A DNA stretch of 64,000 bases from Polytrichum commune (Eukaryota; Streptophyta; Polytrichopsida; Polytrichales; Polytrichaceae), in NCBI GenBank assembly GCA_950295325.1, contig OX485803.1, forward strand, positions 10,478,001-10,542,000, read 5' to 3'. The translations under genes and the position numbers were made by a program. The notes beneath the pieces were generated by a model. That model saw only the letters and a program-made list of their open reading frames with translations, had not been told where the DNA came from and made no database searches. Positions 996-57,500 of this stretch are shown in pieces (the first letter of the stretch is position 1; every line of letters begins with the position of its first letter).

Positions 996-1134
996 TACCT
1001 CTTAAGGGGCATAACACCCTATATTGCATCACGGCAAGCCGTGATCAATATAGGGCCAACGGGCTCATATTCACGCCGGTATGAATAATACTGGCGTTTT
1101 CTTTTCTTTTCTTTTCTTTCTACCTCTTAAGGGG
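996..1134. mobile_element. Short retroposon-like insertion with 14-bp target-site duplication
   Basis: A perfect 14-bp direct repeat, TACCTCTTAAGGGG, lies at 996-1009 and 1121-1134. The 111 bp between them hold two adjacent hairpins and then a (TTTTC)n pyrimidine tract at about 1095-1120. Hairpin 1 pairs CCCTATATTG (1018-1027) with CAATATAGGG, with an inner ATCACGGC/GCCGTGAT stem. Hairpin 2 pairs CGCCGGTAT with ATACTGGCG. A long target duplication plus a simple-repeat tail is the mark of target-primed retroposition (SINE-like). No Pol III A or B box was found, so the parent RNA is unknown. Confidence 0.55.
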
Positions 1135-5995: not shown

Positions 5996-8900
5996 ATGGG
6001 GTGTTTTGAGTTCTTGCCACGAAGCCGTGACACTAGTGAAGGAAAGAGCAGGAAGCAGCATCCTTTTGAGGACAGATCCTCTGTAGATGTAAAGCATTCC
6101 GGGACATTCTCAAATGTTGATAGCCAACCGGTCTCGAATACAAGTGGCCAGGGAGACGTAGTGGTAGAGGTAGCGGCGGTTCCAGTTACCGTTGGAGCAT
6201 TGGAGAGTGGAGAAGCTGAATCTTCTCCAGGAAGCACCAAACTTGATCACATTGGCTCGCTTCGGAAACCCAACGATCTTCGGGACTTCACTTTCCAGGA
6301 GCTCAGATATGCTACCAAGAACTTCAACAGACAACATCTCTTGGGAGAAGGAGGGTTTGGGCAAGTATTTAAGGGCTGTATCAGGCATAAACAGAAATTC
6401 GGTGCAGTAGAGGAGAAAGTGGATGTTGCTGTCAAACAATTAAATTCCAGAGGCCAACAGGTATGTATGCATGCTCACATCCCATGGTGCAGTTTTCTAC
6501 TGGGCTCTCTCCTATTTGATTCTCTGTAAAACATTACATACGACCACCCTTTTGGTGGTGGTTGTAGTTTACTTTCTTTGGTTATGTTTTCGAGGGATAA
6601 GGAGGGAGAAGGTGCATTGATGACAACCACAACCACAAGTATTCTACGTTGCCCAACTACTATGATACAAGGTGCAGTTGGGAGTGGGTGTGATGGTTGT
6701 AGTTTACTTTCTTTGGTTCTATTTTCTTTGTAGTTCCTATGTGGCACCAGGAGAGAACTTTTAAGGCCAAAGCATGGGTTGGAGGAGGCAATTACTCTTA
6801 GATGAACTTTCCACTAGAATCTATAAATTGTTTGTGTCCACTTCACGGATCGCACAAATCGGAGGGATGACCATTGCGATCAAATTCACTTCTCAACTAC
6901 TTGAAGAGTAGTTGTGTGTAAGCGATTTTTTAATTTTGTTTTTTAGTTGTGGTTGGAGGTGGGTCCAAACTCAACTCAACCACCGCGGTGGTTGTGTGTA
7001 AATGCACCTTCAGAACTTGGCAGCAATTATGGGCACGGTGAAGTGCAGGGCTTCAGTCCATTACTATAGTTGGAGGATAAGAATGTGTCAAGTGCATGTC
7101 TATTCCTTTTTTCTGCCCAAGGTTTAGGTTTTCTCTCTAGACTTTGGCAATGGTTAAAGTTATGGCTGCAATTTGATGATCGTCATGTGAATAGCATTGG
7201 CATTTGTGACAGAAGGATAAATTCAGTTCCCCAAAGTCTGTCCTGGAATTCTCTCTCTTCGTTCACTCACATAGAAAAGTCTCTCACGTTTCTCCTTTTT
7301 TATCCGATATTCACCTAATCTTGCATGTCATTATCTTGCAGGGCCATAAAGAGTGGCTTGCAGAAGTCCACTTCTTGGGGCTGGTGGACTCACCATATTT
7401 AGTGAAGCTCATAGGTTATTGTGCAAGTGATGATGATGAAAGAGGAATACAAAGGCTACTGGTGTATGAGTACATGCCCAACAAGGGGCTTGATGATCAT
7501 TTGTTTCTACCTGGGCGTAGACCGCTTTCATGGCCACAAAGAGTGAAGATTGCTTTAGGGGCAGCAAGGGGCCTTGCCTATTTACATGAAGAGATGGAGA
7601 TACAAGTAAGTGCCTCCGATATGTTACTGGCTTGGGTCTCTGTTATTAGCATAGCATTCTTAAGCATGTGTAAAGACATTCTCTTTCTATTGTAGCTTCT
7701 AGAATCAAGGTCCTTGATTGCATACATGAATGCCAAGCATAGTTAAGTGGCAAACTCTTGTTAGTCAACATCTCATTGTTATCTTCAGACAAAGCCTTCT
7801 CCCATCTGTCAAGATTCAACTTGAAGAATTTCACGAAGTGTATACTCTCCAAGATCCTTGGGGAGAACACCCACCACACCACTTAAGAATCCTATAAGGT
7901 CTTAAGTGAAACTCTTAAAAGTGCTTATTGCTTTATAAGTGGGCAGCCATCACGTCCTACTACAGTAATCCATTTCATAGTACTAGATTTTTGGCACCAG
8001 GACTAGGAATCCATAGATATGTACAGGTCGTTGGTTGGAGCTTATCCTGGTATTCCAGCCTGGAATTATTTCCCAATACTTGCTAAGTGGATTTTATTTG
8101 TGACATGTAGGTTATATTTCGTGACTTCAAGACCTCAAATGTATTGCTGGATGAGGAACTGAACCCTAAACTCTCAGACTTTGGGCTTGCTAGACAAGGC
8201 CCCCAGGAAGGCAATAGTCATGTCTCCACTGCGGTAAAGCTGATGTTTCTCTTTCTCTCTGGTGTTTCCTTGCAAACTGGCTCTTAGAGGGTTGCATGTG
8301 CATCTCACTCTGAATACATGAGCTGGTACTGATGTCAGTTGTTACGCCAATAATTGTAAAGGATCAGGAAGTCACAATTTGATGATTAGTAAAGGTACAT
8401 ATCACACTAAACATAATCAGGGGACAACACTCCCCCAAAAAAATTGGGTCCTCTTGAAAAGATTATTAAGATAGCATGATTTATTTGAGAAACAGAGTAT
8501 GTGCTCTCTCTAGAGGAAAGGTTGCAGATGACATTCATCAAATCACAAAGGCAAAGTAGTGCTCATGAAGTTGTTTTCTTGGTAATTGGCACTCTTTTCA
8601 GCTCATGGTTGGAAACAAGTAATTAGAGTGTTCAGCTCTGTATCCACAAATTACTGTATTATGTTGTAATTAGTTTACTGAGCATTATATAGCGTTTCTG
8701 TGTAGTAGATTTTATGCTGACAAAGACAGATGTGGTTGTGTGTAGGTTGTAGGCACAGCAGGATATGCGGCGCCTGAGTACATACAAACGGGTCATCTCA
8801 CATCCAAGAGTGATGTGTGGAGTTTTGGTATAGTGATGCTGGAGATGCTTACAGGGCGAAGAGTCATGGATAGAAATCGACCCAAGAATGAACAGAGGCT

Positions 8901-9534
8901 AGTAGAATGGGTGAGGCCCCACATCAATGATCATCATAAGTTTGCTCAAATTGTCGACCCACACTTGGAAGGTAAATACCCATTGCGGCCTGCCTTGAAA
9001 TTCGCACAACTTGCAACGCAGTGCCTGACCAAGTTACCGAAAGGGAGACCAAAAATGAGCGAGGTAGTGGAAAGGCTGAACCATGTGTTGGAGAAAACTT
9101 ACCAATGGGAGTGTCCGACTCCGCAATCTCCTTCACAAGGCAGTCGAGGAACAACTGTAGAGGGTGGAAGACCCGGTGTAAGTGTCTCTGAAAGTCCCAA
9201 GGTTAGGGCGGCCCAACAAGGCCTCTTGCCATCAGTCGAAAGTGGGAAGTTGGTGAGCTTCAGTCCAAGTACGACGCAGAACTCGGATGTTTCAGGTGAA
9301 ATTGGCAAAGTTCCAAAGAATGTTTCTGAGCTGTCCTTAGAAGGGTCAGCCACGACCACATCATCAAAAACTATGGACACGTCTGCCGAAAATTCAGCTG
9401 AGATTCCATCTGCAACATCTGATGTTGCCAAAAAGAGATCGTGGGGCTCTGACCGGTTGTCCAGGATGAGTCGTGAAAGTGGTCGGTTTACTTGGATCCC
9501 GAAGCTCTCATTCTCCAGCCAAACAGGGGGCTGA
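5996..9534 (+). CDS. Receptor-like cytoplasmic kinase, RLCK-VII (PCRK/PBL19-like)
   Basis: Four exons, all joined in phase 0: 5996-6460, 7342-7605, 8111-8233 and 8746-9534, giving 546 residues. The protein starts MGC, with Gly2 and Cys3 suited to myristoylation and palmitoylation, so it should sit on the plasma membrane. The kinase domain spans about residues 98-400: glycine loop [15 protein letters not shown] lysine near 147, VIFRDFK catalytic loop near 245 (an RD kinase), DFG near 266, and the [10 protein letters not shown] activation-segment end. The phrases [25 protein letters not shown] and [10 protein letters not shown]-like sequence place it with PCRK1/PCRK2/PBL19 (RLCK VII-4), which relay pattern-receptor signals to MAP-kinase cascades. 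A Ser/Thr-rich tail of about 145 residues follows. All catalytic residues are present. The exact substrate is unknown. Confidence 0.93.
6608..7011. mobile_element. Probable MITE in intron 1 of the kinase gene
   Basis: GAAGGTGCATTGATGACAAC from 6608 is an imperfect inverted match to sequence ending AAATGCACCTTC at 7011, with AACCAC-rich sequence next to each. The 404-bp interior is non-coding. A separate direct repeat of about 35 bp, containing GTTGTAGTTTACTTTCTTTG, lies at 6555-6590 and 6692-6727 and straddles the left end. It sits wholly inside the intron and leaves both splice sites intact. No target duplication was fixed. Confidence 0.4.
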
Positions 9535-34670: not shown

Positions 34671-35894
34671 CTAAGGAGGAGCGGCAAGGTCAGCTTCCTC
34701 TTGCGCCTTACTCTTGCTACCCTTGCCTTTGGCAAAATCTTCATTCACATCCACTTTGAAATTGCATCCCAATTGTGACAACTTCACAGACATGGCAATC
34801 AACTTCTCCTTCAGGTCTTGCAGGAAAGTTTCCTTTCCTTCCTCATCAACCTTTGCACCTACTAGAAGGGGCCACACCTTAACCATGATGCCCAGATACA
34901 TGTCTCGCTTCTCAGCATCCTTACATTCATCATCGATGATGATTGCAGCTCCTTCAGGTTTCCCATCGATCACCAATGCTTTCGCCAAAGAAAAGGCACT
35001 CGCAGTGGTGTGACTAAATCCCCGTTCTTCCCTCCATTTTTGAACCTCATGCACTTGGTTCACATCACCACTATTGGCAGCAGCTGATATAATAATATCA
35101 TAGAGAGGTTGCTTAAATGAAAGCCCGTTCATGTGCATCTCCTTTGCCATTCGAAACAACAGCTCTGCATCTCCAGCATCTTTACAAGTTCGAATAATCA
35201 AATCAGCAGAGCCAGGGGTAGGAAAGACCTCATTTGCAACCATTGTTTTAAACACTTGCAGCATAAGCTTTGTGTCTTTCTCCACCAAGGCATGTTTCAG
35301 AAGCAAATGTGCTTGGTCAATACAAGGTGTGAACCCATATCGATTCTTCTTCAATAATGTCTTCAATGCCGACTGTGGATCACCTGATCGAATGCACGCT
35401 TCCACCATCAACTGAGCCATATGTCTACTATGATTTGCCTTCTGTTGGCCTTGAACTGCTTTCAACCTTCTCAACCGGTCAACCAAATCCAACGCAAGCT
35501 TCACGTCCGTAGGAGTAGCACAACTTTGCAGCAGGGTGGGCAGCATGTGAGACTCAGGCATGCGCTTCTGTTGCACTGCATCGGTTAGCTCTTTATACAG
35601 CCTTTCAACCTCTGGACTTCCCACTTCGCCTCCTGCCTTTTCCTCCACAGCTGCTATAGATGACATTCTAACCAAAACCTGATGTGACCATATCGGTTGC
35701 ACCATAGGAGATCGACATGCCTTTGTAGAGCTCCATAGCGATGTGGTGGACGATGTGATGCCCACAGCATACTCCCGTGCACTCTCACATGAGGAAATTG
35801 CAGGCAAAGACGATCTCCCGTTTGCTAATTTAGAGGAGAATGAGGAGTGGAGCAATCTGCGAAGCGCAAGGCTTGCGCCTCTTGTGCCCCGCAT
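34671..35894 (-). CDS. PPR-like protein, probably mitochondrial
   Basis: A 407-residue single-exon frame. The start at 35892-35894 is the first true ATG (MRGTRGASLALRRLLHSSFS); the open frame runs 21 codons further upstream without one. The Arg/Ser/Leu-rich, acid-free N-terminus predicts mitochondrial import. From about residue 85 to 330 it is built of paired helices in P-type PPR manner: HMLPTLLQSC, ALKTLLKKNRYGFTPCIDQA, LMLQVFKTMVANEVFPTPGS, AELLFRMAKEMHMNGLSFKQ, YDIIISAAANSGDVNQVHEV. The repeats are degenerate, and no E, DYW or SMR domain follows. The end is a charged linker (FAKGKGSKSKAQEEADLAAP). Such short intronless PPR proteins bind organelle RNA or sit on mitoribosomes; the target here is unknown. 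Confidence 0.85.
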   Translation of the reverse strand: MRGTRGASLALRRLLHSSFSSKLANGRSSLPAISSCESAREYAVGITSSTTSLWSSTKACRSPMVQPIWSHQVLVRMSSIAAVEEKAGGEVGSPEVERLYKELTDAVQQKRMPESHMLPTLLQSCATPTDVKLALDLVDRLRRLKAVQGQQKANHSRHMAQLMVEACIRSGDPQSALKTLLKKNRYGFTPCIDQAHLLLKHALVEKDTKLMLQVFKTMVANEVFPTPGSADLIIRTCKDAGDAELLFRMAKEMHMNGLSFKQPLYDIIISAAANSGDVNQVHEVQKWREERGFSHTTASAFSLAKALVIDGKPEGAAIIIDDECKDAEKRDMYLGIMVKVWPLLVGAKVDEEGKETFLQDLKEKLIAMSVKLSQLGCNFKVDVNEDFAKGKGSKSKAQEEADLAAPP

Positions 35895-36059
35895 TTTGGT
35901 ACTCACGTCAAAGAACCAAGAACAGATTGCAAGACTATATATCAACAAGCACCACAAAGTGCATGATCACTCAAGCTAAAGTGTCCACGTTCGAGTCAAT
36001 CTTCAATGCATCAATTTCGTTTCCAAAAACTCGAGTCCATCCCTCCGAGCCAAGTCGAG

Positions 36060-39557: not shown

Positions 39558-42500
39558 ATGAAGCAGAAGAGGGACTTCGAGTGCCGAGCGGCGTTGCAGA
39601 GGTTGGTGTCGAGGCATCCATTGCTCGCCACACACCCGGACGTCGCAAGAGTGTTGGCGCAAGGAAGCAACGCGGAGGAGAGCAGTGTCCTTGAAATTGT
39701 GCAAGAGCTTGTCCTCTGCCCGGATGTGAGTGTAGCATGCCTGGGATGCTTCCGGCCTGTCCTTGCACAGGTTTTGGACAGTCTGCTGTACTCCTTGAAG
39801 GTGCTATGGAGGCAGGGGAAATCCTACTCGGGTGGGAATAAGAAGAAAGGCGGGGAGTGGGTAGGAATTTCCTCTCGGCTTCGAAATGGAGGAGGATGGG
39901 ATCTCGGGTTACATGAATTTACTGTTGTGTTGTTTAGTCGACTGCTGGAGCTCGCACCTTACTTACTTAGGTATATGGGATCATCATCTCTCTTTTTGAA
40001 CTTGAGGTCATTCACATGAGAGTACTTGAATTCCTCGTGTAAGTTGAGACTACTGACAATTGCATGGGATGTGAGTGTTTTTGTTTGTTTTTGTGGGAAT
40101 TCTGGTAAATGAGTAACCTTGAGCATTACATATTATTCTGAACCTTGTATGTTGTTGTGGGGCTGTGATCAGTTCATTTCTTCAGTACTTTGAATTTGCA
40201 CCTTCTCCATTCGAACGCCTCCTGCATGGAGGTTCAGCGATTTATGAATCTTTGGTTTCCTCTAGTAAGGTTGTTCCCTTCGTCTCGGAAGCACCGGCAT
40301 TTATCCAAGTTATATGGGCATCTTACCGACTTCTACGACAGGAGCCTAAGATTTTTCGGGAGCTTTGGGACTGGAGTCCATTTCTTGACCTATTACGACT
40401 TACGCCTAAAACTTTAGATGAAGAAAGTCTGGATGTCCGATGGTGTGGTGTCCAAATTATTTCACTTGTTTTGCAAATGAGCAATACCGCAACTTTGGAA
40501 TTGAGCTCAACAGTTGCACGTTTGACAGAGAAAGATTCATTTAGTTGTCACCTTCGCGGGAAGAAGTTGTCTCAGGAAATAGCTGTAGAGAGAGCAGGCA
40601 TGTACTTGGAAAGAAATGACGATGAAGAATTAATAGATGCAGTAGAGACTTCAGATTCCCGTTATGATTGGGATTTGAGCAATGCGAAGAGTTGGGGAGG
40701 AACGAAAAGATTCCACCTGCAAATATGTGGGATCGAGCTGCCTATTCGGCAAATTTCTCGAGAGGGCAGGTTTGTGTTTCTGTCTTTAAATATCTCCTTT
40801 TCGTTTTATGTACTTTTGCTTGAATTTGCTTTTTGAACAGTGGACGTATTCTGACCTGCAATAATTATGTCTTTCAATAAACTGAGGTTTGTGACAAGAA
40901 AACGACCTCTCACTTCTTGCACGATGAGAACATTGAATGATGTGTAATGAGCTCCACATAAAGCACCCTGTGTGATGCAAGGGTTTTTGAATGAATGTAA
41001 GGTACTAGAGGGTATTTTTCTTTCAGAAATTGTTTCCTCACGGTTGATTTTGACTTCAAACAGGGCCTTTCCACTCCCAAACCATGCTTTTGTGTTAACA
41101 CCGACTGTGAAGAGGAACCTGGAGGCTGTGGTTCTAGCACTTAGCCAGAGACATCCTGTTCTTTTGGAAGGACCCATAGGATCAGGAAAGTCATCTTTGA
41201 TTCAGGAATTGGCATCCACTACAGGGAATTGGGATCTCCTCTTTATCCACTTAGATGATCAGATGGATAGCAAGACATTGCTGGGAAATTATGCGTGTAC
41301 GGAAATTCCAGGTGAGTTTAAGTGGCAGCCAGGGGCCCTTACCCAAGCAGTCGTGCGAGGCATGTGGGTGGTGTTTGAGGACTTTGACAGGGCTCCTTTT
41401 GAAATTTTCTCGGCTCTTATACCGCTACTTGAAGACCGGAAGTTGTATATACCAGGACGGGGGGAGATGATACCTGCTGCCGATAATTTTCGGCTGTTTG
41501 CAACTGTTACTAGGACAAGACATGGTGGTGTTGCATCAGGTGGCAAGAAGGATATGTTGGGAAATCTTTGGAGGAAAGTGGTAGTTGATGAACCCAGTGA
41601 CGAAGAACTTGCAGACATTATGCGTGTCCGTTTCCCCTCTCTGACCCTTCTTGTTCCCAAAATGATTGGTACTTTGAATCTTGTCAAGCACATTGCATCG
41701 CAGTCTAAGGCTGCACCTGCTCATGGATTTCCTGATGTTTCAATCTACATCGGTCGTCAATTCTCTACCCGGGATCTCTTTAAGTGGTGCACAAGGGTAT
41801 CATCCTTGGGTCCTCAAGCTCTAGGAGGTTCTGTTCTATCTGGTGCTGTTCGAGAGCGCATATATGTAGAAGGTGCTGACTGTTTTGCTGCCTCCATAGC
41901 GAATGCTGCAGATCGGCAGCTAGTTATGTCTGCAATTGGGGAGTACTGGAATGTCCCGATGGACCGTGTGAACTTCTATGCCTCACTCAATAAATCCTCT
42001 TGCCAAATGACGACTTTGGCCCTTCATGTAGGAAGGGCCACGCTACATATGCAATCAAAAAGGGCAAAACCTGAGCTGACTAGAGTTTTTGCTTATACTG
42101 GTCATGCAGTACGCACCCTGGAAGCTATAGCCATGTGTGTTCAAGAACAGGAACCAGTGCTCCTTGTCGGAGAAACTGGTACAGGTAAAACCAGCCTTGT
42201 GCAACATCTTGCTTGGCAGTTGGGAGTGTCCCTCACAGTGTTGAATATGAGCCAGCAAACTGATAGCACAGATTTTCTGGGTGGATTTAAACCTGTTGAA
42301 GCACAGGGAGTGTGTATTCCTTTGTTTGAGACATTCAATGTACTCTTTAGGGATACTTTTCCCAAAAAGAAGAATGCTCAGTTGCTGGAACATGTCCAAC
42401 AATTTGCAGAGAAGAGGAAGTGGGATCGGCTCTTGAGTGCATTTCAGAGTGTGATTGGAACTGTTTCAAAGCTCTTGGGAGCATCTTTAGAAGTTTCAGA

Positions 42501-45500
42501 AGTTGATGACCTACAAAGAAATGTGTCCATTGATGTAGTTAAGCAAGCTGCCAATGGGCACTCTGAAGAAGAGCAGAGGTCAAAGCGGAAGCGGCCACTG
42601 AATAGCAGCCTGCTAAAGCGTTGGCAAGCCTTCACATCCGATTTACATAAGGCAGAGCGACAGGTGGAAGCTGCAAAGACAGGCTTTGCCTTCTCCTTTG
42701 TAGAAGGAGTTTTAGTGAAAGCTATACGTGAGGGGCACTGGCTTCTTCTTGATGAGATCAATCTGGCTCCTGTGGAAACTTTGGAGAGATTAACTGGAGT
42801 CTTAGAAGGGGCAGGAGGCACACTTTCTCTGACAGAGCGTGGCGATGTTGAAAATGTGTTCCGCCATTCAAATTTTCGGATTTTTGGTTGTATGAACCCT
42901 GCAACAGACTTTGGAAAACGTGATCTCCCAATTTCCTTGCGAAATCGGTTTACAGAATTGTATGTTGACGAGCTAACTCAAAAAGAGGACCTACATGCCT
43001 TGGTATTTCAGTTTCTGGAGAACACCATTCCATCCCCCCCTGTTGAGGACATTGTTAATTTCTATCTCCAGGCTCGTCATGAAGCAGAGACTAGACTACT
43101 GGATGGGGCTAATCAAAAACCCCAGTATAGTTTGAGGTCACTTGCACGAGCCCTTGAATACACCTGTGCTGCTATGTCTACATATGGGTTCCATAGATCG
43201 TTGTATGATGGAATCTGCATGTCGTTCTTGACTCTCCTTGATCGCCCAAGCGCACTCATAATGGAGCAGATTATTAACTCATCATTATTCAAGATTACAG
43301 GAGCTGCTGCAACAAAAGCTCTGAAGGCTCTTTTTAAGGTTCCACCCCAGCCTAGTCCTGCTCATGTTCTTTTTGAGCACTTCTGGGTGGAGAGCGGGAA
43401 TGCCCAACTGATGAGGTTAGCATTCATTCTCGTTGTCATGTTGAACATGGTATAACTTCTTAGTATTAATGCTGCGTCTTTAATGTAGTGCAAGGTAATG
43501 CCTGGATCAAGTGTAGCTGCCATCCAGGAAATGCCTTATTGAATTCTGATGCAATTGATTAACTTGACTTCTGCACTTGAAAGCTACATGCATAGGATAC
43601 AGATTAAAGTAAGATGTATTTTTCTGCAGTTTGTCCCAGGAGTTGAAAGACCGCTACGTTTGCACAAAGACCATTATGGAGCACCTCAAGAACCTGGCTA
43701 GGGCAGTATTTGTTCGAAAATATCCTGTTTTGTTGCAAGGACCAACGTCAAGTGGGAAAACCAGCCTTGTTGAGTACTTGGCTACAACTACTGGTCATCG
43801 TTTTGTCCGCATCAACAATCATGAACATACAGACCTGCAAGAGTATTTTGGTTCGTATGTGACAGATTCTTCAGGAAAGCTGGTTTTTCAGGAAGGAATA
43901 CTTGTTGAAGCAGTGCGGAAAGGGTACTGGATTGTTCTCGATGAGTTGAATCTAGCACCTTCAGATGTTTTAGAAGCTCTGAACCGATTGCTAGATGATA
44001 ACAGAGAGCTCTTTGTACCAGAACTTCAAATCACCGTGAAGCCACATCCTCATTTTATGTTGTTTGCAACACAAAATCCGCCTGGAATATATGGAGGGAG
44101 GAAAGTTCTTTCTAGGGCATTTCGTAATCGATTTATGGAGCTTCATGTAGATGACATCCCTGATGATGAGCTGTGCATGATACTGGAGAAACGGTGCCAG
44201 ATTCCAGGGAGTTATGCAAAAAAAATGATAGAAGTAATGAAGGACCTACAGCGACACCGACAAGGTAGCAAAGTGTTTGCTGGTAAACATGGCTTCATTA
44301 CTGCTCGTGATCTTTTTCGATGGGCAGAACGGCATGGGAATGGATATGAGGAGCTAGCTAGAGATGGTTATATGCTGCTTGCGGAGAGGTTACGTAATGC
44401 AGAGGAGAAAGAAGTGGTACAGAGAGTGCTTGAAAAGCACATGCGTGTGAAGATTGATGTAGATCAGCTCCATGAGCTAGGAGGCTCTAAGGCTTTGCAG
44501 GCTGCTAAAGTCTTTCTGGAATCTGAAGAGCATGTGTTGTCTTTTGGAAGGATTGTATGGACCAAAAGCATGAAGCGTTTGTTCAATCTAGTGGAGCACT
44601 GCATTAGACATTGTGAGCCTGTTCTTCTTGTAGGTGAAACTGGGTGCGGGAAAACCATGATTTGTCAGCTCCTATCTTTGCTTCTGAAACAAAAACTCCA
44701 CATTCTTAATTGCCATCAGCACACAGAGACATCTGATTTTCTTGGTGGCCTCCGACCTGTCCGTGAGCGAGAGAGTCTAGCCACAAAGTTTAAGAAAACT
44801 GCTGAAAGAGTGGCTTCTTTGGAAATAATCTCTAAACACTGTCCTGACAAGATTTCCTTCAAGATAGACGATGCTGCAACCACAATTGCACTCATTAAAT
44901 CAGCTCTATCAGGTGAGATGTTCCCTTCCTTGTTGTATAGCCCTCACCCCCTTCTCCTTATTCTGACAATACTATTAATTTCTGTTGGGGATTTTTTTAT
45001 GAGTTTGCCAAGGCACATGCGTATGAGTTGAAGTTTCATATATTATGGTTTGATCATTTCAAGAAATTGTGATCTGAGAGAAATGTTGGCTAGTATGGAT
45101 CTGTTCTGCAAGGAGTCATCACCTCATTGGCGCTTGACCTTTCTCAGATCTGTGTTCAGACCCTTAAAGATGTGTAAATGTTGTTCTCAGTAGAGCATTT
45201 TTACTTCTTTTGTTTCTCTAGATTTCTTGTCTCTTCTCATGTACTGTCTCTTCTATCCTTGTGGTTCTGTTTTTTTCATCACAAACAATAGATTTTCCTG
45301 GCATTGACTTGTTTACTTCCAACAGACATGAAGAAGTGGAAGCAAGATGATGAGAATTTGGCCAAGTCACTTCATATTGTTGAAGAAGCTCTGTATGAGC
45401 TATCAACGTATCACAAGGACTGGCAATCCCTTTTTGTTTGGCATGATGGTCCCCTTGTCCAAGCTATGCGTGATGGAGATATGTTCCTTGTGGATGAAAT

Positions 45501-48500
45501 ATCTCTTGCGGACGATAGTGTGCTGGAAAGATTGAACAGTGTGCTTGAGCCCAAGCGTCTGCTGGTAATTATGGATCTTCTCTGGATTCTTTGTATTGTG
45601 TGCCTGCTGTTGTGGTTCCCCTTGCTTAAGTTTGATTTTCAACCCAACCTATACTATCACGTATTAGAGTAATCCTTTAAGTCGGTGGGACTTTTTCTTG
45701 GTAGTTGGTCTCCTATAATTTTGTTTTTTGTTCGTACAATATTAATGATTTCTCTCCATTGTGATGCATGCTCTGAGGTAGTGTTTGAATTTGAAAAAAA
45801 AACAACCTATTTTGGTTCATTGAGGGCCAACTTCGTTTTAGCATCTCTTGGCATGCCAAAATTAGTTTGACCATCGATGAACCTATATAGAATGTTCTTC
45901 ATTCAAACCTCCACACTACCTCAAAGCATGCACCAAAAAATTACTGTATGGAAGGTGTCGTATGCAAACAACCAACTCCTGACCAAAAGTCATGTTGAGT
46001 GAGAGGATCACTCTATTGCATTGACCCAGAAAAGCAGGTTTGGGGCTTTGTTTTGGATAGTAGATAGAGATGTGGGTGTTACAATCAGGCAGGATGCTAT
46101 GTACTGAAGCAGTAGAGTGACCTTCTGCTATTGTTAAATCTGAGGTCCTTGCTTAACTTTTTTTTTGGGCTTCGACAGGTTTTAGCGGAAAAGGGAGGGG
46201 CTATTGTGGAGGAATTGATTGCCAACCCAAGCTTTCGCCTTCTAGCAACAATGAACCCTGGAGGGGACTTTGGCAAAAAAGAGCTTTCTCCTGCTCTGAG
46301 GAACCGTTTCACTGAAATTTGGGTTCCTCCTATTAGTGATATAGAAGACCTCAGAAGCATTGTCTTAGATAGATTTCTTGTTCCTGAGTTAACCAGCCTG
46401 GCAGGTCCTATGCTTCAGTTCTGGCAGTGGTTTCAACATCATCACGAGGGTGGGAGGTCACTCTCCATACGTGATCTTCTGGCATGGATCACTTACATAA
46501 ATATTGCTGACACGCAGATTGGGAAGATTCCTGCATTCATTCATGGGGCCTTCTTAGTTCTTTTAGATGGTATTGGGTTTGGAACAGGTTTGTCGAACTC
46601 AGTTGCCCAACAGTTACAAACAGATTGTGCAAATTATTTATTTGACCAGCTATCTGAAGATGAGAAGCATATTGCCATTGAAGCTATTCAACCTAAAGAT
46701 GATAAATTTGGGTGTCTAGATGTATCTGCCATGGAGGTGGGTGGTAGTTCCCATGGCAATATATTTGGATTGCACCCATTCTTCATTCTTAGAGGTGATC
46801 ACACATTACCTCAGATCAGCTTTGCACTTGATGCACCCACAACAAAACGGAATGCTTGGAAGATTTTACGTGCCATGCAGTTGCCTAAGCCAATTCTTTT
46901 GGAAGGAAGCCCTGGTGTTGGCAAGACAAGCCTAGTGGCAGCTCTGGCAGCTGCTTCAGGCCATGCTTTGGTGAGAATCAATCTCTCTGAGCAGACAGAT
47001 ATAATGGATTTGCTAGGTTCAGATTTACCAGTTGAAGGCGGGACAGGTGCCGATTTTCAATGGTCCGATGGGGTGTTCCTACAGGTTGGTGCTTTTGATA
47101 ACCTCTCCCCTTTTAGTATTTTGATTGTCGATATATGGCTCTTGGCAATGAGTAAATATACTTTGAAAGCTTCACTGAATTCTAATTCTAAAGTGAATAA
47201 TTTCAAAGACCTGGTTTTATATTGTGAGAGAATACTGTAGATGATGTAAGCACAGCAGGTCTTATTCTGCAATTTCTATTAGCTTTTAGTTTTGGTTTTC
47301 TTCAGCTGCTCTTAATTTTAAGTATTGCTTTTATATTCTGAATTGAAGAATGTGTATAAGATTATAATCATATAAGAAACTACAACACTTCCCTGATACT
47401 CATTAAAATTGTCCGAAATGTGATGCTGTGAGTTTCTACAATTCTCTTGAATCTAATGAAAAGGTAATTTAGGCTAATATTGTTTGTGTTGTTGTTCTGA
47501 ATATTTAATTGTTGATATCCTTACAAAAGCTTTCTCCTGACAGGCTCTGAAATCTGGACACTGGGTGCTTCTTGACGAACTCAACCTGGCATCACAGTCA
47601 GTGTTGGAAGGCCTGAATGCTTGCCTTGATCACCGAGGAGAGCTTTTTATACCTGAACTAGGTCGCAGTTTCAAATGCCCTCCTACTTTCCGTGTGTTCG
47701 CTTGCCAGAATCCTCTTTCACAGGGAGGTGGGCGTAAAGGCCTCCCAAAGTCGTTCCTGAATCGCTTCACAAAGGTCTACATGGATGCGCTCTCTTCTGA
47801 TGACTTCTTAGATATTGCAAGCATTTTACACCCTTCTATTCCAAAGTCGATCTTGGTGAAGATGATTGGTTTCAATGCACGGTTATACCATGAGACAATG
47901 ATTGCTCATTCATATGGTAATTCTGGTGCTCCATGGGAGTTCAACCTTCGGGATATATTGCGGTGGTGTGAGCTCATGGAGGGAAGCCATGACTGTCAAC
48001 CGGATTCTGTGACAGACATCTATTCTCCTCAACATTTTCTTGATGTCATCTATTTGCAGCGCATGCGCACGATTGACGATCGATGCCGTGTTCTTAGTCT
48101 TTTCCAGGAAGTCTTTGGTACTGTCTTTGAGATTAACACATTTCCAGGAATTACAGTTCATCCTGACATTCTACAAGTAGGGCTAGCAAGTCTTGATCGG
48201 AGAGATGGACCATGGTTACAAGGGCACCTTGCCAAGCAACTACAGCTTCTGCCTGGTTTATCAAACAGGTTATTATTTCTAAGAGTCCAGTTGTTTTCAT
48301 CTTGATAGTTCCTTTTGTAAACTTGAATTTTAGTTTCTCTAGATATATAGCCTCCAAAGTTCAACATTTATTTCACATTGAGCTGCTCTCAGTGAAATAT
48401 TCACCTCTTGTCAATAATCATACACATTCAAGGCATAGCTTAGTTCAGATCTCTTAGGATAGGTTGTTGTTAATAGACTGTTTGTAATTTGAATTTGGTG

Positions 48501-51500
48501 CATTTTTTTTTGCAAAGTGAGTTTCTGTGGTTAATGACTTCTACTTAAGAGCATGAGTTTCAATCTCTTAGTAACAGTATTGCTGCAATTTCAGCCATCC
48601 TGGACATGATCTTGCTAGAGAACAACCAACATGCCTTTCTACACTCAACTGAGTTCGATTTAGGGAGTTTTCTTATAGTGTTGCTGATCTCTATGGTCAT
48701 TGTAGTGCTGGTCTGGATGGTTCTTACAGGGGAGATGGAGGGTTCTGATATCTCCTACGTTTATTTTGCAGGATGGAAGCTGCCATGCATTGTGTGTCGA
48801 AAGGATGGATGTGCATTCTGGTTGGACCTCCTGCAACAGGAAAAACCTCCCTTGTCCGCTTGATGGCAGCTCTTACAGGCAACTCGTTGCATGAATTTGC
48901 ACTTTCAAGTGCAACTGATACAACTGAGTTACTTGGTTGCTTTGAACAACATGATCCTTTCAGACAGTGGCAAGATATTGTGAAGAGGACTTATGACTCT
49001 TTAAAAACTATATGCAGCTTTTGTTTAAGTGTGAATGAAGGTACTCTTATTTTCCATCTTTACCATTGTTGAAGTTTGATTCGTGCATGTGTGTACTCCA
49101 GTAAATAATTTGATTGAAATAATCTGTTCAGTTGAAATTTTCTCTAGTTATAGTTGGTGACACCATGAGATATTTTGATGCTTACATTGGTCTATCATGT
49201 ATGAAGGTGCCTTGCAGGCTGAAGTGAAACTCAATCTGGTGAAGAATCTGTTTGGCTCATGGACAGCTTTTCAAAAGTGCTCTCATAATCCTGTAGCACG
49301 GTTAGAGCAGCATATTGAACAAGGGGCTATAGACTTAGTGGCTGTCAATATGATTCTTCAGATCTTGGAACAGCTGAGCCAGGTAGTCACTTCCAGTGGC
49401 ATGTCTATTGAAGACATTGATTTGGACCCACGATGCTTGACCCAAAGAGCATTAGAATTGAAATCTAATATTGGGCAGTTCGGTAATGCTGGGCATTTTG
49501 AATGGGTTGATGGAGGGCTTTTGAAGGCAGTTGAACGCGGAGAGTGGGTGGTCCTTGAGAATGCAAATTTTTGCAACCCAACGGTATGTTCTGTTTATTT
49601 GTAGTGTGGAAGTGCTCTGCTATGGACTATGGTCCCATCCATTTCTTCTATTTGGTATTTGAGAATGGTCTAGAAGGATGTGAAGGATACCTGCTGGTGT
49701 GGTAGCTCTATAGATGAGACTTGTGATATACTTATTTTCAGGTCAGTAGTGATATTTATAAAGAGTGGTAACCAATGCGAGGTGGAATGAAGCTAAGCAA
49801 GAATACAAGATATCATATCATGTTTTTGGTTTGTAGTACACCAATCATGACAGGATATGGTTAAGGGTTACAACCATCCTCCTCATAGCTACTAGAAAGA
49901 TGCTACATCATCAAGATTCCTCCTCACACCAGTTATGTAGCATCATGTGGTAAGAGGAGGGGACCATTTCAGTTGGTGGGTTGTATGAGCGCAAAGTAGG
50001 GTCTTGTCAGGCCTTTTCCTACTTTCACACTTGTCTCACAGATCACTTCTCCTTCAGGATTTCCAATTACTGGATGTTAGATTTGCACCCTGGATTAAGA
50101 GATTGAGGAATTGTTTTGTGCAGGTTCTTGACAGGTTGAACCCTCTGCTTGAACCAGGGGGTAGCATCATGATCAATGAGCGAGGACTAGTCAATGGTGA
50201 ACCAATGGTGGTTCAAGCCCATCCCAACTTTCGTCTCTTTCTCACAATAGACCCAGCTCATGGAGAGGTTTCAAGAGCAATGCGTAACCGTGGGGTTGAA
50301 CTCTTTATGCTGCAACCTGACTGGTCTCTTTCAAAAAGTGAGAAGAGCCCAATCCTGGAAGATCTCCTTGGAGGACCCAACACGGCTGATCTGGACTCAT
50401 TGAAAATACTTATACAACCTGGAGTCCCAAGCTCTATCCTTATTCAAGGAATGTGCAAAACACACATTGACCTTCAAAAACTTACAGAGGTTACACATAG
50501 TGGGTTGCCTGTCTCCCTGCGTGAACTACATGCATGGGTGATGCTGTTGCAGCAGCTTCTTGAAAGGGGTGGTGACTTGCTGTGGTCTTTGAAATGCAGC
50601 TGGGAACAAACTTATGCCCGCCGTCTTGATTCTGTGGAGGTGAGAGAACAAGCCTTGGAAAAGTTCCATGCAAGGCTTGGATCAGTAGATCTCATGAATG
50701 TGATGAATTGGAGGCATGTTGCACTCAGCACTCCAGGGGGTTGGCCGACACCCATCACTTTAATAGATTATTGCTTGAATTCAAAGGAGGCAGTAATTAC
50801 ACGAGACAGTGGATTTCTGGAGTTTTTGGGTTCTCAGTCCTGTGCTGTTGGAGCTCAAAAGGAGTGGCAGTCTTCGGAAAACAGACAGAATCCTTTGAAA
50901 TTGACACAAGGAAACACTGCCTCAGTTGCTCATCTTCCAGCAAGTTTAGTGTTCTGTTTCCTGAACCCCGGGAAATTTTCGTCCAAGGATCACCCCTTGC
51001 CCCAATTTAATTCACAAGATGTTGACTCTATGTTGCTATTTGCGAGCCTCTGGCTGATGGAACAGGTGAGCTGTGCAGACTTCAATCTCAGATTGCAGTG
51101 GCTGAAAAACTTCACAGCTAATTTGCAAGTGCCTTCCAATGTTTTGAATCGTGTTGTTGCTGCATTGGAACATGAAAGAGTGCACCCACTCTCAATAGAA
51201 CTGCATTCTGTGGAGGAATCAAGAAGAAAATTGAAATGGATCAAAGTTGCTAGGAGGATCGAGATCCTGAGAAGAAGTCTCTTGCAGTGGGAAAAAGAGG
51301 ATGAAGCATACAAGATATCGGACGAGCTAAGTCCTCATTCAACATGTGGCCCTGTGGTGCAATCTTACTGGCAGCACAAGCATCGGGCGGAACGCTCTCG
51401 AATTTCATCTACCCAATTGCCAAGGGCTATGTTGATCTATTTGTATGCTTTGTTTTCCTCTCTGCGGAAAGTGGAAAACGAGGTGCTGATTTCAAGCATA

Positions 51501-54500
51501 ACCTGCGAGTGGGACGTGAAGCTGGAGAGAGCCTTCTTGACTTTACAGGAGTGGCATGAAGCACTGTGGCAAAATCTCAGCACTCCAAAGTTCGATGTGG
51601 AAGGGTTTCTTTTCCACTGGAGTTTATTGAAACGAAGTCTTCAACTCTTGTTCAATTTACTTTGCACAGCTGGTGTTTCTGCCTCAAAGGCAGAGGAGGA
51701 AATTAAAGGTCTTTGTAGATTAATCGATGAGCCGTTTGCTTTAGGGGAGAATCCTCTTTCAAAGCCCCTTCTATGGAAATTTGGGGGCCATCCAGAGCTC
51801 CTGCACTCAAAGGATGGTCAAGACCTGGAACTCCAAGTTATGGGGATATGTCAAGATTTATGGAGTTCAGGAGTTCAGGAGGGGAATATGATTATCTGTG
51901 CTGATAGTAAGCTCCGCCAGCTTGCCATGACAGGCTTGAGTATCATACGGTGGCTAGGTCATGACACCACTATGACCTCATCTGATGGTGCTCCCCCAAA
52001 TCATACAGTTCATTTGGAGTCTTTAGAGATGTATCAACTGCTGAAGGAGAGGATAGAGCAAGAGAAGACCGCAATCATACCTTTGCGCAATCACGATATC
52101 ATACCACTAAGTACTAAATTGGCTCGTGTTGCTGGCAGCCAAAAGACACAGCCTTCACAGACCTTGTGGTTACCTTCATTCCCTCTGGATCTACTTCGCT
52201 GGCCCAGTGCCTGGGCTCTTTGGGCACAGCTTTTGCCATGGCTAAGCGACATAAGTGTTGGTGAAGACACAAAATTGCTTTCTGATTTATCACTTCTGGT
52301 TACTACTGCTTTTCATTCTGAAGAAGAATTGCTAGGGGCTCTGAAGGAGAAAGTTGCAGAGGGAACTCTCAAGCAAATGATAAGCTTTGGTATCTCCTGT
52401 TCCTCAAGGTCGCCTGTGGATCTTGTCCCGCACCAACACCTGTTATGGCTATTAGATGGAACCCACCCATCCCAAACCAATGTGTTGACTGCCTTCAGAG
52501 ACACTGTCCATGAGTTATGGGTCCGGTGGCATTCGGCACTTTGGACTAACATGTCAATGTCTCAGGACCCTTCAGAAATTAGATTTACAAATCTGGGTCC
52601 TGCGAGGATTTTCCATGCTGCACAAACTGTACATTTAACATATCTACTTGGTCATACAGGCCCAGTAAGAGATCATCATGCCAAACTTACACAGCTTAGG
52701 GTGGCAGCATCACACTTGTGGGATCAGGGGAAGTGCGGCAGTGTCGATGTCTTTGAGTTGATTTTGAGCTCTTCTAGTGCTCTCTTCCAGCAGATTGTAA
52801 TTGCGCACCAGAAGTCTTTCTCTGATGCAGATTTTCGAATCCTGGTTAGCATTCTTGTATCTTTACGATTAGCGGTATTTGCAAACAAAGACGGTTTGTT
52901 GGAAAATGAAGCTGTGATAGTTGAGGATCTTAGACACGTGCTTCAGCAATCGTCCCATGTGGAGCTCCTAAATGTTCTGGAGTTGTTGATTATTCCGCTT
53001 GTGAGACTCTTGTATTTCACAACGTGGAAATCCTTAGACTGTGGCCAGTCGCTGGTTTATCAGGGAAGAGTGTGGCTCTTGTTAGGGGAGTTAAGGCTCC
53101 GGTTACTTCTCCCAGCTGATGGATGTGACCCCGTTTCAAAATACAGGCATAAGTATGCCCACGTCACATCCAAATTGAATGATCTAGATATAGAAATAAA
53201 CACACGACGGGAGAGTGAGTATCTGGTTCGAGGCAGTCGACATTCACCTCAGATTCTGGAACTCCTTACAGTTCTCGAGGATATGAAGCGGGAAGGGAAT
53301 GCTCTGCTGAAGAAGGTGATCCCACGGCCTAATCCTCCACGTTATCGAGACTTCATTGGCCAGGTGGTTGGATTCATAATGTCGTCAGTTGACAACGGGA
53401 GGTTGGCTGTTCTGTCAAGTGATACATATCTGGACTTGCAGAATGGGACTCACACACCTCAAGAAGTCTCCACATGGCAAGACAATGCTATTCAGTTCAT
53501 CAGGCATCTTTCTTCTGCATATCCAGCCTATCGAGATGCTGTGCAGCCAGTCCAATTGGCAGTGTATGAGATGATGCTTGGCTTATCTCTGGTGCAAGAA
53601 GGCCGCATCCAGACAGTAACATTTGGAAAGAATGGTGTGAGTCTCGGAGAGAAAGCATTCATGGAGCTTTTATGCACTCTTATGCAGTTCCCAACCCTGA
53701 GAGGTGATGGTAGTGTTGGGGATGTCGGTCAAGGGGGTTTGACATCCTGCACACAAATAGTGACAAATGCATCCGAAGAGATAATATCACAGGTGGCAAA
53801 TTCTCTAGTGTCTGGCCCTGTGCACAGTGAAGTCCTGGATTTGGAGCTGAAAGTGATGGTTTTACGGGTTGCTCTTCTGCGTATTGGGCTCAACATCAAG
53901 CAGGGAAGGATCAAGGGCAAGGATGTTCTGAAGCTTGCTGAGAACATCTTTGATACTCTGGCCTCGTTGTGGGCTGAAATTAGAGACCGGCAGCTTGCCA
54001 GAAACAAGGAGGATGATGAATTTATACGCTTTACTGCCCGCACACATACCATGGAAACAGAAGCTGAGCTAGATGAGATTTCTTTCAGAGAGATGTTTGT
54101 TGACTTCCGGGCGGAGTTTCCTGGTTACGATGATGACACGGCCATGGCAAGTGCAGAAGTTGATGATAGAAAAGCAGAAGCAGCATTGAAAGAGAAAGAA
54201 AAGGCCTCTGATGAAGGAAAGCAGAGATTGGATAAGGCGTGGCTGGCAATACAGGAGCCTCTCACTCAGGATGTGGTAGCCGTTCATAGGCAAATCTTCA
54301 GTTGCACTTTGAAATGTTCGGATATTTTGGATGAGATCCTGGTGTCAGATGTTGAAAGAGAAAATGCTTTCTCACTTGCATACAAGGCTGGAGTAACCTT
54401 GATCAGAGCTGTAGGAGACAGGGTGCCAATCAAACTGGATGGTCTAATTGTAGCATCTCATGTGTTGCAAGTGGGCCTTGAGCACAAGAAGGTGGGGCTA

Positions 54501-57500
54501 CTCAGGCAGTCACAACCTGAAGGCAGACATCCCAGGTATGATATTTACAAAGATCCTAATCCCCCAGAGATGGCGCTAATGCTGGAACCTTTGGGGCGGT
54601 TTCTGGAGCGGGTTGGTGGCTTGTTAGCAGAGTGGCCAGAGCACCCAATTCTGTTACAGTTTTTAAACATTGCAAAAGCTCTGGTAGGAATATCACTCGA
54701 AGCCCCTATCATGAAAGCCTTAACTGGAGTAGAGCTATTGCTCTCAAAGGCTCAACTCTGGGAAGAGAATTCTGCCAAGCATGTCTCATTAGCAGGAGAA
54801 ATGAATGAGATGATGAAGTTGGTCAGAAGGTGGCGGAAGCTTGAGCTTGAAAGCTGGCCCTCATTGCTAGACTGCACTCTAGAAAAACATGAAAGGAGTG
54901 CTGAAAGCTTGTGGTTTTTCCTTCATGGGCTACTCCATCGACAATGGGCAGATGATATGGACAAAGAGATCGAGGATACAATTTCTAGTTTAGAAGAGTT
55001 CATGCAAACATCTCCACTTGGCGAGTTCCAACGGCGCCTTGATTTGTTACATTCCTTTTATGGACAGTTCACAATTGAAGAAGCATACAATGCTCCTCAT
55101 GCTGGGGCTTCACAAACTTCTGTGCGGATGATTGCACACATTCTGTACAATGTGCATGAGTACTACTCGCAATTTTTGATCGCAGTGGAGGAGGCTGTGT
55201 CACTTGGGAAGGCCCCTCTGGAGAAGGAGTTAAAGAGCTTTGTAAAGTTAACTAAATGGGAGGATCGTGGTTATTATGCTCTAGCCCTTTCTGCGGAGAA
55301 GACTCACCGTAAACTTCACAACATTCGACGAAGATATGATGAGCTTCTGAAGAAACCTGTCTTAGATTTATTAACGAGGCAGTCTGTACGAATGGGTACT
55401 CAAACTCTTGCTTCGTTGACCACCTCAGTATTGCCAACTGATGTTGAGCATGAACTTTCTAAAGATTCCAATGGCAATGATGAGAAGCTGAAGTCTACAT
55501 TCAAGCCTCCTGCAAGTGATGTGACTTCCACATTTTCAGAATGGAACCAATATTGTGAAATTAAAGTTGCACAATTGAAATTGTTGGTTTTCTCTGAAAT
55601 TCCCCTGGGTGTGCCAGGGGCACTCAAGCGATTACCAACCCTGACTTCAAAGATTTGCAAATTTATTGGGGTTGGAGTCTTTGAGATGGGCTGCAGAAGA
55701 GTCCAAGAAGACAGTGTGAATATGCTAGAAGAGTTCAGTACTTCTGTCATTTCTCGGTCAGCTGAGTTACGAAAGGGAGAGAAGAGGCTAGCAGTAAAGA
55801 AAAAAGCATTAATTGATCTTCTCAAAGCGTTGAAAGAAGTCGGATTGTCTCATCACAAGTCAGCTGTGCCAAAAGAACAAAGAAATACAAAGAACTGGTT
55901 TCAGCAGCCTGCTTTTGATGTTGCGGAGGTGCTGACTCCTTTGTCCCCAGTGGTGGATACTTTGGGAGATGGAGGAATCAATGCTAAAATTATTGCCGGC
56001 TCCATTGAAAGTGTGTGCAGCATGTGGACACGTGCCAAAACATACTACTTCCAGAATGTGGCACTCATGCAACGACTTAAACAGAATGCTCTCAATTTCA
56101 ACAAGGCCTTGAGCCTAAGAGAAGTTGAGTTTTCAACAAAGTATATGGAGCATTTGTTGTTTCTTCAAAGGAAGCAAAGACAAACTGCATTTGAGTTTTC
56201 GTCAAAACTGAGTCTTCTTCAAAACCTATCCACTCTTTTATCAGGTATGCTTACTAGGCATGTAGATTACCTTGTTCTTTCATCTTTTGGTACTCTTTTG
56301 ACTTTGCATTTCTAGCATTTTTAGCATTCTTAACATGTCATTGTTGCCAGGTTTTGCGGGCCCGGGAATATGTTTCCCACAACAAAGGGCACTCAGAAGA
56401 TGGATGTGGCAGCAAAAGGGTTTCCTGGACACTGTTTGCCACACAATGGCAGAATTATGTCTTCTATTTAAGACAGCTGAAGCATCACAGAGATCTCTTT
56501 CTGAGGTTGGCCAAATTACTGAAGCTGGACCTCTCAGCATTATCCTTTCAAGGCTGTTAAACAGTTTACAGGGTTGTAAAAATGTTCTAGATGAGCTCCT
56601 GGTTCCCAACAGTCGGAGTGTAAAAGGTCAGAGTAGTCTTGAAGATGCATGGCCTTTGGTTATAACCCCGGCAATGCAGAAAGTACTCGCAGATAATTTT
56701 GCTGCTGTAAAGAGTACAGAATGTGCCATCAAAGAGCTCTGTGAACGTCTTGATAGTTCCAGAATTCCAGGCCTGAGTACACTTCAGCATCTGCTAATCA
56801 AAGGACGAGAATTGTCAGAGAAGTTTGAGGAGCTCATCATGAGTCTGGACAAGGTGGAAACCTCTGAAAAGAGAGGTGCAGCTGGTTTAGTATCTTTTAC
56901 TGAACATTATGAGAAGACTGTATCAGAGGTTCTTTTAGCAGTTCAAGACCTGAGGATGAACACGACAAACAATAATGTAGAAAATTCAGTTCCTTCATCT
57001 GAGGAAGGGCAGATTGAACTCATGGGAACTATCCAGGACATAGATCACTCAATTTCCAAGAAGATGGTTGCTTTGCGGTTTGGGCAGATCTGTGATTCAA
57101 TAATGAGGACCATTTTGGCAGGTACATAAGAGCAGTTCACTTCTTTCTTTTCATACAATTAGCACTTACTTTAGGGTTGCCAAGTTTGAATTGTTTTTTC
57201 TTCATCAGTGAGCTGCTTAGTATTTTATTAAACCACCATGTTACTTGATTACCAAGTGGTTTATCTGCCCATTGGACTCATTTTAGCAGAGATTTGAAAC
57301 AGAGTATCCTTCACATTCATGTTTTGGTTTCCAGCATCATTTGCTTGTGCTGATGAGGATATCTTTTGGAGACCATTTTTGACAGGGGCAGATACTATGG
57401 ATATGGACGGAAGCCATGGCAGTGATACAGGCATGGCATTGGGACAGCTGCTTGGCTCTATATCTGTTCCATTACAGATCATACAAGCAGCAGGAGCTCA

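Follow-up and report, generated by a model that had tools for sequence, protein, structure and literature searches.

A 111-nt hairpin-rich insertion in the Polytrichum commune genome as a very probable 5'-truncated copy of an abundant LINE whose copies often end at a predicted 3' RNA domain

A short insertion in the genome of the moss Polytrichum commune is, with high confidence, an extreme 5'-truncated copy of an abundant LINE; this confidence applies to the identity of the insertion and not to the cause of its early stop. The insertion lies in the window, the whole stretch of 64,000 nucleotides analyzed here. Its body lines up colinearly with the 3' ends of long copies of this LINE, for which we predict a 3' RNA domain consisting of a junction of two helices (P1 and P2) with hairpin 1, followed by hairpin 2. 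Many other copies in the genome end at or inside the same domain, and the sharp, recurrent stop at its edge suggests a built-in stop just ahead of the folded tail. The parts of the insertion are listed in Table 1.

Table 1. Parts of the insertion and of the neighboring inverted repeat, in window coordinates.
Feature	Position	Strand	Remarks
5' copy of the 14-bp target site duplication, TACCTCTTAAGGGG	996..1009	+	exact match; resembles LINE P2 sequence
111-nt body, 5'-truncated 3' end of a Dualen/RandI-like LINE	1010..1120	+	
Hairpin 1	1017..1055	+	stem perfect in the window copy except for one bulged C
GGGCTC, predicted 3' arm of P1	1061..1066	+	
Hairpin 2	1073..1097	+	
(TTTTC)n tail	1098..1120	+	
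3' copy of the target site duplication, TACCTCTTAAGGGG	1121..1134	+	14/14 bases
Inverted-repeat arms	1230-1298/1501-1569		80%
Inverted-repeat arms	1293-1351/1435-1493		86%

The first-pass annotation had described a perfect 14-bp direct repeat bracketing a body of two stem-loops and a (TTTTC)n tail, and all of these parts were recovered as described. The two hairpins fold with a predicted energy of -40.5 kcal/mol (z -7.25), far beyond what shuffled sequences reach (0/200 as low). The P1 partner of the GGGCTC arm, GAGCCC, is present upstream in long LINE copies and missing from the window copy. Just downstream of the insertion, positions 1230-1569 form a large imperfect inverted repeat of foldback/MITE-like appearance. 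Farther along the window, 40951-47240 and 49989-60432 encode AAA and midasin lid domains, and these are followed by long open frames of 2108 and 1044 aa without a Pfam match, which may be the rest of a midasin gene. A partial protein kinase gene and a frame of PPR type were also seen (8746-9534 and 34671-35966, minus strand).

We searched the 408-Mb genome (64 contigs, seven of them large; the window lies on contig C1) for related sequences. A contig of 146,561 bases holds an intact rbcL frame with matches to Rubisco large chains, in keeping with a streptophyte plant. The body retrieved 39 other scored places among 506 candidates, with 85-89% identity. A 24-nt core of the 3' domain was found at 984 places with at most two mismatches (reversed control, 0), and a 21-nt block further upstream, containing P2, at 401 places (control, 2). 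When 300-base flanks of the 39 copies were compared, upstream similarity extended over the full 300 bases in 30, was lost within approximately 10 bases in six, near the same place as in the window copy, and was intermediate in three. One subfamily (L067, L084, L096, and L112) has a tail of TTTTA/TTTA in place of TTTTC, and therefore the tail unit drifts between subfamilies. Two further copies on contig C7, L009 and L010, located approximately 32 kb apart, have identical element and flanks over the stretch shown and probably stem from a segmental duplication, not from separate insertion events.

To characterize the parent protein, ten copies were examined with approximately 9.7 kb of upstream sequence. 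Copy L056 carries a frame of 2123 aa that ends just before the 3' region and encodes an AP-type endonuclease (Exo_endo_phos, 9.3e-8, 32.5 bits, cut-off 24.5), a non-LTR reverse transcriptase (RVT_1, 7e-30), and an RNase H (RNase_H, 9.9e-14). Its reverse transcriptase region matched R2 protein chains in the PDB (E 1.4e-35). By eye, the C-terminal part contains a zinc-finger-like CxxC..H..C motif followed by RHN and RPD..E, which we take to be putatively RLE-like. Searches of this part against Pfam and the PDB gave no usable match (DUF2043 in 3/15 members, best 0.0018), and a structure model of the region was too poor for fold comparison (pLDDT 43.6). Because an AP-type endonuclease, an R2-like reverse transcriptase, an RNase H, and a putative RLE-like C-terminus are combined, the parent looks like a Dualen/RandI element and is a candidate member of that clade. 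Searching with the C-terminal protein sequence gave 147 scored places among 6676 candidates, several of them within open frames longer than 2000 residues (C4:10129321, C5:33414224, C7:2730472, and C4:36093011), and the family may therefore have been active recently. A sub-threshold PCIF1_WW match was also seen between the reverse transcriptase and the RNase H (L056:3340-9708, residues 1379-1470; 2.3e-6, 27.7 bits, cut-off 31.1). A methyltransferase-like piece would be unusual within a LINE; structure modeling of these residues gave a result of insufficient quality (pLDDT 32.6).

The hairpins belong to a 3' domain that is under pairing constraint. For this analysis, a set of 74 long copies was reduced to 52 with a similarity threshold of 94%. 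One more (L160), whose start lies in the P1/P2 region and whose hairpin 1 is incomplete, was dropped, leaving 51. Paired bases occupied 87.1% of the cells compared with 33-39% in slid controls, over which the structure has an advantage, having been drawn from one of the 51 sequences. Cells changed on both sides numbered 96, for a shuffle mean of 47.7 (0/500 shuffles as high). Two of the five measures were weaker and were reached by some shuffles, namely the number of doubly changed pairs (15, shuffled 11.2; 11/500 as high) and the number of pair types (44, shuffled 40.5; 28/500 as high). Hairpin 1 carries changes on both sides at eight of its 11 inner pairs; its sequence varies across the family while the pairing is largely kept. 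P1 (GAGCCC/GGGCUC) and P2 (CCUC/GAGG) are almost invariant. Their covariation is weak evidence because both barely vary and because the patterns used to pick the rows fix them (34/51 rows by a pattern fixing GGGCTC, 17 by one fixing P2). The first P1 pair is broken in ten rows, and one copy (L155) has a compensated P1 pair. An RNAalifold consensus of the same 51-row alignment contained P2, hairpin 2, and the tip of hairpin 1, whereas P1 was absent from it; its covariation term was only -0.63. Minimum-energy folding placed P1 around P2 and hairpin 1, with hairpin 2 coming next, in all nine full-span long copies folded (L048, L056, L057, L120, L053, L055, L075, L112, and L119), the window copy not being counted.

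To locate the 5' ends, we used 99 of the first 100 exact core places in positional order, a choice that is independent of copy length. The 5' end was taken as the point where similarity to the other copies stops in an all-against-all BLAST covering up to 700 nt upstream. Among the 99 copies, 41 extend 345 nt or more upstream (for six, the length of sequence read sets the limit), 11 end at -344 to -100, four at -99 to -62, 20 at -61 to -53, and 23 at -52 to 0. Thus, nearly half of the copies sampled in this one genome (43/99) end at or inside the 3' domain, and 20 of them do so in a single 9-nt stretch at the A-rich P2 loop, a site that has the sequence CCUCCC-(A-rich loop)-GGAGGC in long copies. 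For this bin, which was picked after inspection of the data, 1.5 ends would be expected if ends were uniform (P 1.6e-17), or 4.2 when the comparison is restricted to the final 100 nt, with its 47 ends (P 1.1e-9). Starts defined by the target repeats of 15 hot-spot copies lie between -61 and -51. We make no claim that such a truncation hot spot is unreported.

The window copy starts inside the hot-spot zone, at GG/CATAAC. Its target repeat aligns to the P2 stretch of the LINE, best with that of copy L093, and 0/1000 shuffles were as similar, the reference being 29 upstream stretches of which at least two are badly anchored; for the target repeats of 15 other hot-spot copies, 76 to 997 of 1000 shuffles were equally similar. 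Because the duplication resembles P2, the exact boundary between LINE and target is blurred by microhomology in the window copy, and an extended microhomology may have guided this junction. The microhomology is no substitute for a target duplication since the 3' copy of the repeat sits past the tail, with non-LINE sequence after it.

The short copies are largely independent insertions, as shown by their target repeats. The first-pass annotation had proposed looking in the genome for other copies with duplications of their own, and these were found. Flank repeats scoring at least 10 (10-19 bp) were detected in 36/47 short copies, compared with 0/188 pairings of flanks from different copies. The repeat sequences differ from copy to copy, and 34 of the 36 start with T. 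The 11 short copies without a repeat of this score include the window copy, its repeat having been cut by the search window (14/14 when examined fully), and L134, which scores 10 in a wider search. The broader reading, that an RNA was retroposed in the manner of a LINE, is supported by the target duplication of the insertion, its repeat tail, and the many copies.

In the mechanism that we propose, the LINE protein would recognize the folded 3' domain (the junction of P1, P2, and hairpin 1, plus hairpin 2), and a nicked target end finishing in A would prime on the U/C-rich repeat tail. TPRT with such an A-ending primer beside a protein-bound 3' structure, as in stringent LINEs (PMC4176376), would fit the constrained pairing, the repeat tail, and target repeats that start with T. 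The reverse transcriptase would copy hairpin 2 and hairpin 1 and would often halt in the A-rich P2 loop before CCUCCC. The resulting short cDNA would be joined to the target, often via common A residues, and copies getting past the loop would mostly extend for hundreds of bases. 5' truncation has been ascribed to incomplete reverse transcription in at least one account (PMC2881922).

As to the cause of the stop, we tentatively favor a barrier to the reverse transcriptase, the template still being anchored at P1/P2 in the RNP, without putting its likelihood as high as even. A barrier formed by P2 itself, however, should stop the enzyme before GGAGG and not in the loop beyond. Ends within hairpin 1 are spread over the arms as well as the loop and are not located at its 3' base, and ends across this hairpin suggest a generally low processivity in that zone. 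With a likelihood below even, the whole 3' domain could be an abortive zone with a checkpoint, in which the enzyme, tethered to the RNA that it binds, would drop off until it is past the P1/P2 boundary and then become processive. This idea is likened to promoter escape by RNA polymerase and to telomerase at its template boundary. If it were true, the genomic stubs would be a fossil record of failed escapes. The cause of LINE truncation is an old question for which incomplete reverse transcription is the usual answer, and the hot spot brings it within reach of a test that uses one RNA and purified reverse transcriptase.

A different cause with the same LINE origin is a template RNA cut by a nuclease in the P2 loop, the 5' piece being held by P1/P2 and the reverse transcriptase running off at the nick. 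The hot-spot starts fall at a predicted unpaired loop, as expected for such a cut, and a few junctions (e.g., L038, L067, and L141, by eye) carry extra bases. Tailless retropseudogenes are likewise described as truncated at single-stranded regions, for which the authors favored internal priming (PMC5322556). Speaking against a cut, the remaining ends lie in the arms of hairpin 1 as well as in its loop. Moreover, target repeats end in A in 10/15 hot-spot copies compared with 4/21 elsewhere; many hot-spot junctions thus have A residues in common with the target, which is consistent with a cDNA end having annealed there and suggests that this end was free. We regard template cutting as a credible but less than even prospect, and keep a slight preference for the barrier.

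The first-pass annotation had also considered the insertion to be the remnant of a SINE not yet described. Such a family would be a short element in its own right that has separate source genes, lives as a parasite of the LINE, and has its 3' end in common with it. The sharp common 5' end of the short copies and their target repeats would suit a SINE, and Chlamydomonas SINEX SINEs are tabled with tails common to RandI/Dualen LINEs (PMC3747384). However, the short piece lies wholly inside the LINE 3' end and has no foreign head. In addition, the hot-spot copies belong by sequence to many LINE subfamilies and form no cluster. A tree combining 20 hot-spot copies with 56 longer ones, built on 91 columns with 34/67 inner branches unresolved and 23 copies ending nearer the core left out, required 18 label changes for a shuffled mean of 17.7, at least 10 of them forced by supported branches. 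The nearest neighbor was a short copy for 7/20 hot-spot copies (random mean 5.0). Since the hot-spot copies are interspersed with longer ones from many subfamilies, the break at this place formed repeatedly, and nothing points to a lineage of SINEs. To the extent covered by these tests, the proposal of a SINE remnant was thus not borne out, and we consider a SINE family very unlikely. Short hairpin-rich repeats with target duplications can pass for SINEs, which calls for caution.

A second proposal of the same annotation, a retroposed small structured RNA, fared no better. Under this reading, an unknown cellular small RNA would have been retroposed and its sequence captured by the LINE, and the strong, stable hairpins with a U-rich end are compatible with it. 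However, Rfam gave no match at the gathering threshold over the whole window, and the same sequence forms the 3' end of long LINE copies. A permissive Rfam search with 231 bases returned the bacterial sRNAs Hrs12 (25.9 bits, cut-off 70) and Esr41 (19, cut-off 102), weak matches that probably reflect a hairpin-plus-U resemblance. A self-cleaving ribozyme, also considered, likewise had no Rfam match at the gathering threshold. We therefore consider the capture of a small RNA extremely improbable. A local duplication or deletion product without retroposition, for which the common flanks of the neighboring L009 and L010 might be invoked, has hardly any chance of being correct, as the 36 repeat-bearing short copies differ in their flanks, each with its own repeat, and the bases flanking the window insertion are unmatched at every other place of the body search.

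Among known systems, the moss LINE resembles the Dualen/RandI LINEs of Chlamydomonas and other algae in combining an APE, a non-LTR reverse transcriptase, and an RNase H in one long frame. Dualen is described as carrying an APE plus an RLE, and an RNase H is noted in Dualen/RandI (PMC4640811). SINEX-2_CR, a SINE paired with RandI, is tabled with the pyrimidine repeat (CTTT)n (PMC3747384). In contrast, the tail of the moss LINE is (TTTTC)n, its RLE is putative, from motifs seen by eye, and its short copies are truncations rather than SINEs. Dualen has been reported from relatives of Chlamydomonas and from cryptophytes (PMC8226300; PMC12747079), and flowering plants are described as having almost exclusively L1 LINEs, with RTE in some species (PMC3747384).

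The structured 3' end, with its compensatory changes, is likewise reminiscent of stringent-type LINEs such as ZfL2 and UnaL2. A 3' stem-loop of ZfL2 is reported to be bound by the ZfL2 protein (PMC4176376), and UnaL2 is listed as ending in a short repeat (PMC3747384). The moss LINE differs from these in its clade and in its predicted junction plus hairpin, which its protein would bind under the proposed mechanism. The similarity of its reverse transcriptase region to R2 chains in the PDB relates it to an element reported to perform TPRT in vitro when given its 3' UTR RNA (PMC10499050); unlike R2, the moss LINE is dispersed at varied targets, has an APE, and ends in a repeat tail. Finally, in mammalian tailless retropseudogenes, structured RNAs are likewise found truncated repeatedly where they are single-stranded (PMC5322556). 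Their defined break is at the 3' side and their machinery is that of L1, whereas in the moss LINE the break is at the 5' side.
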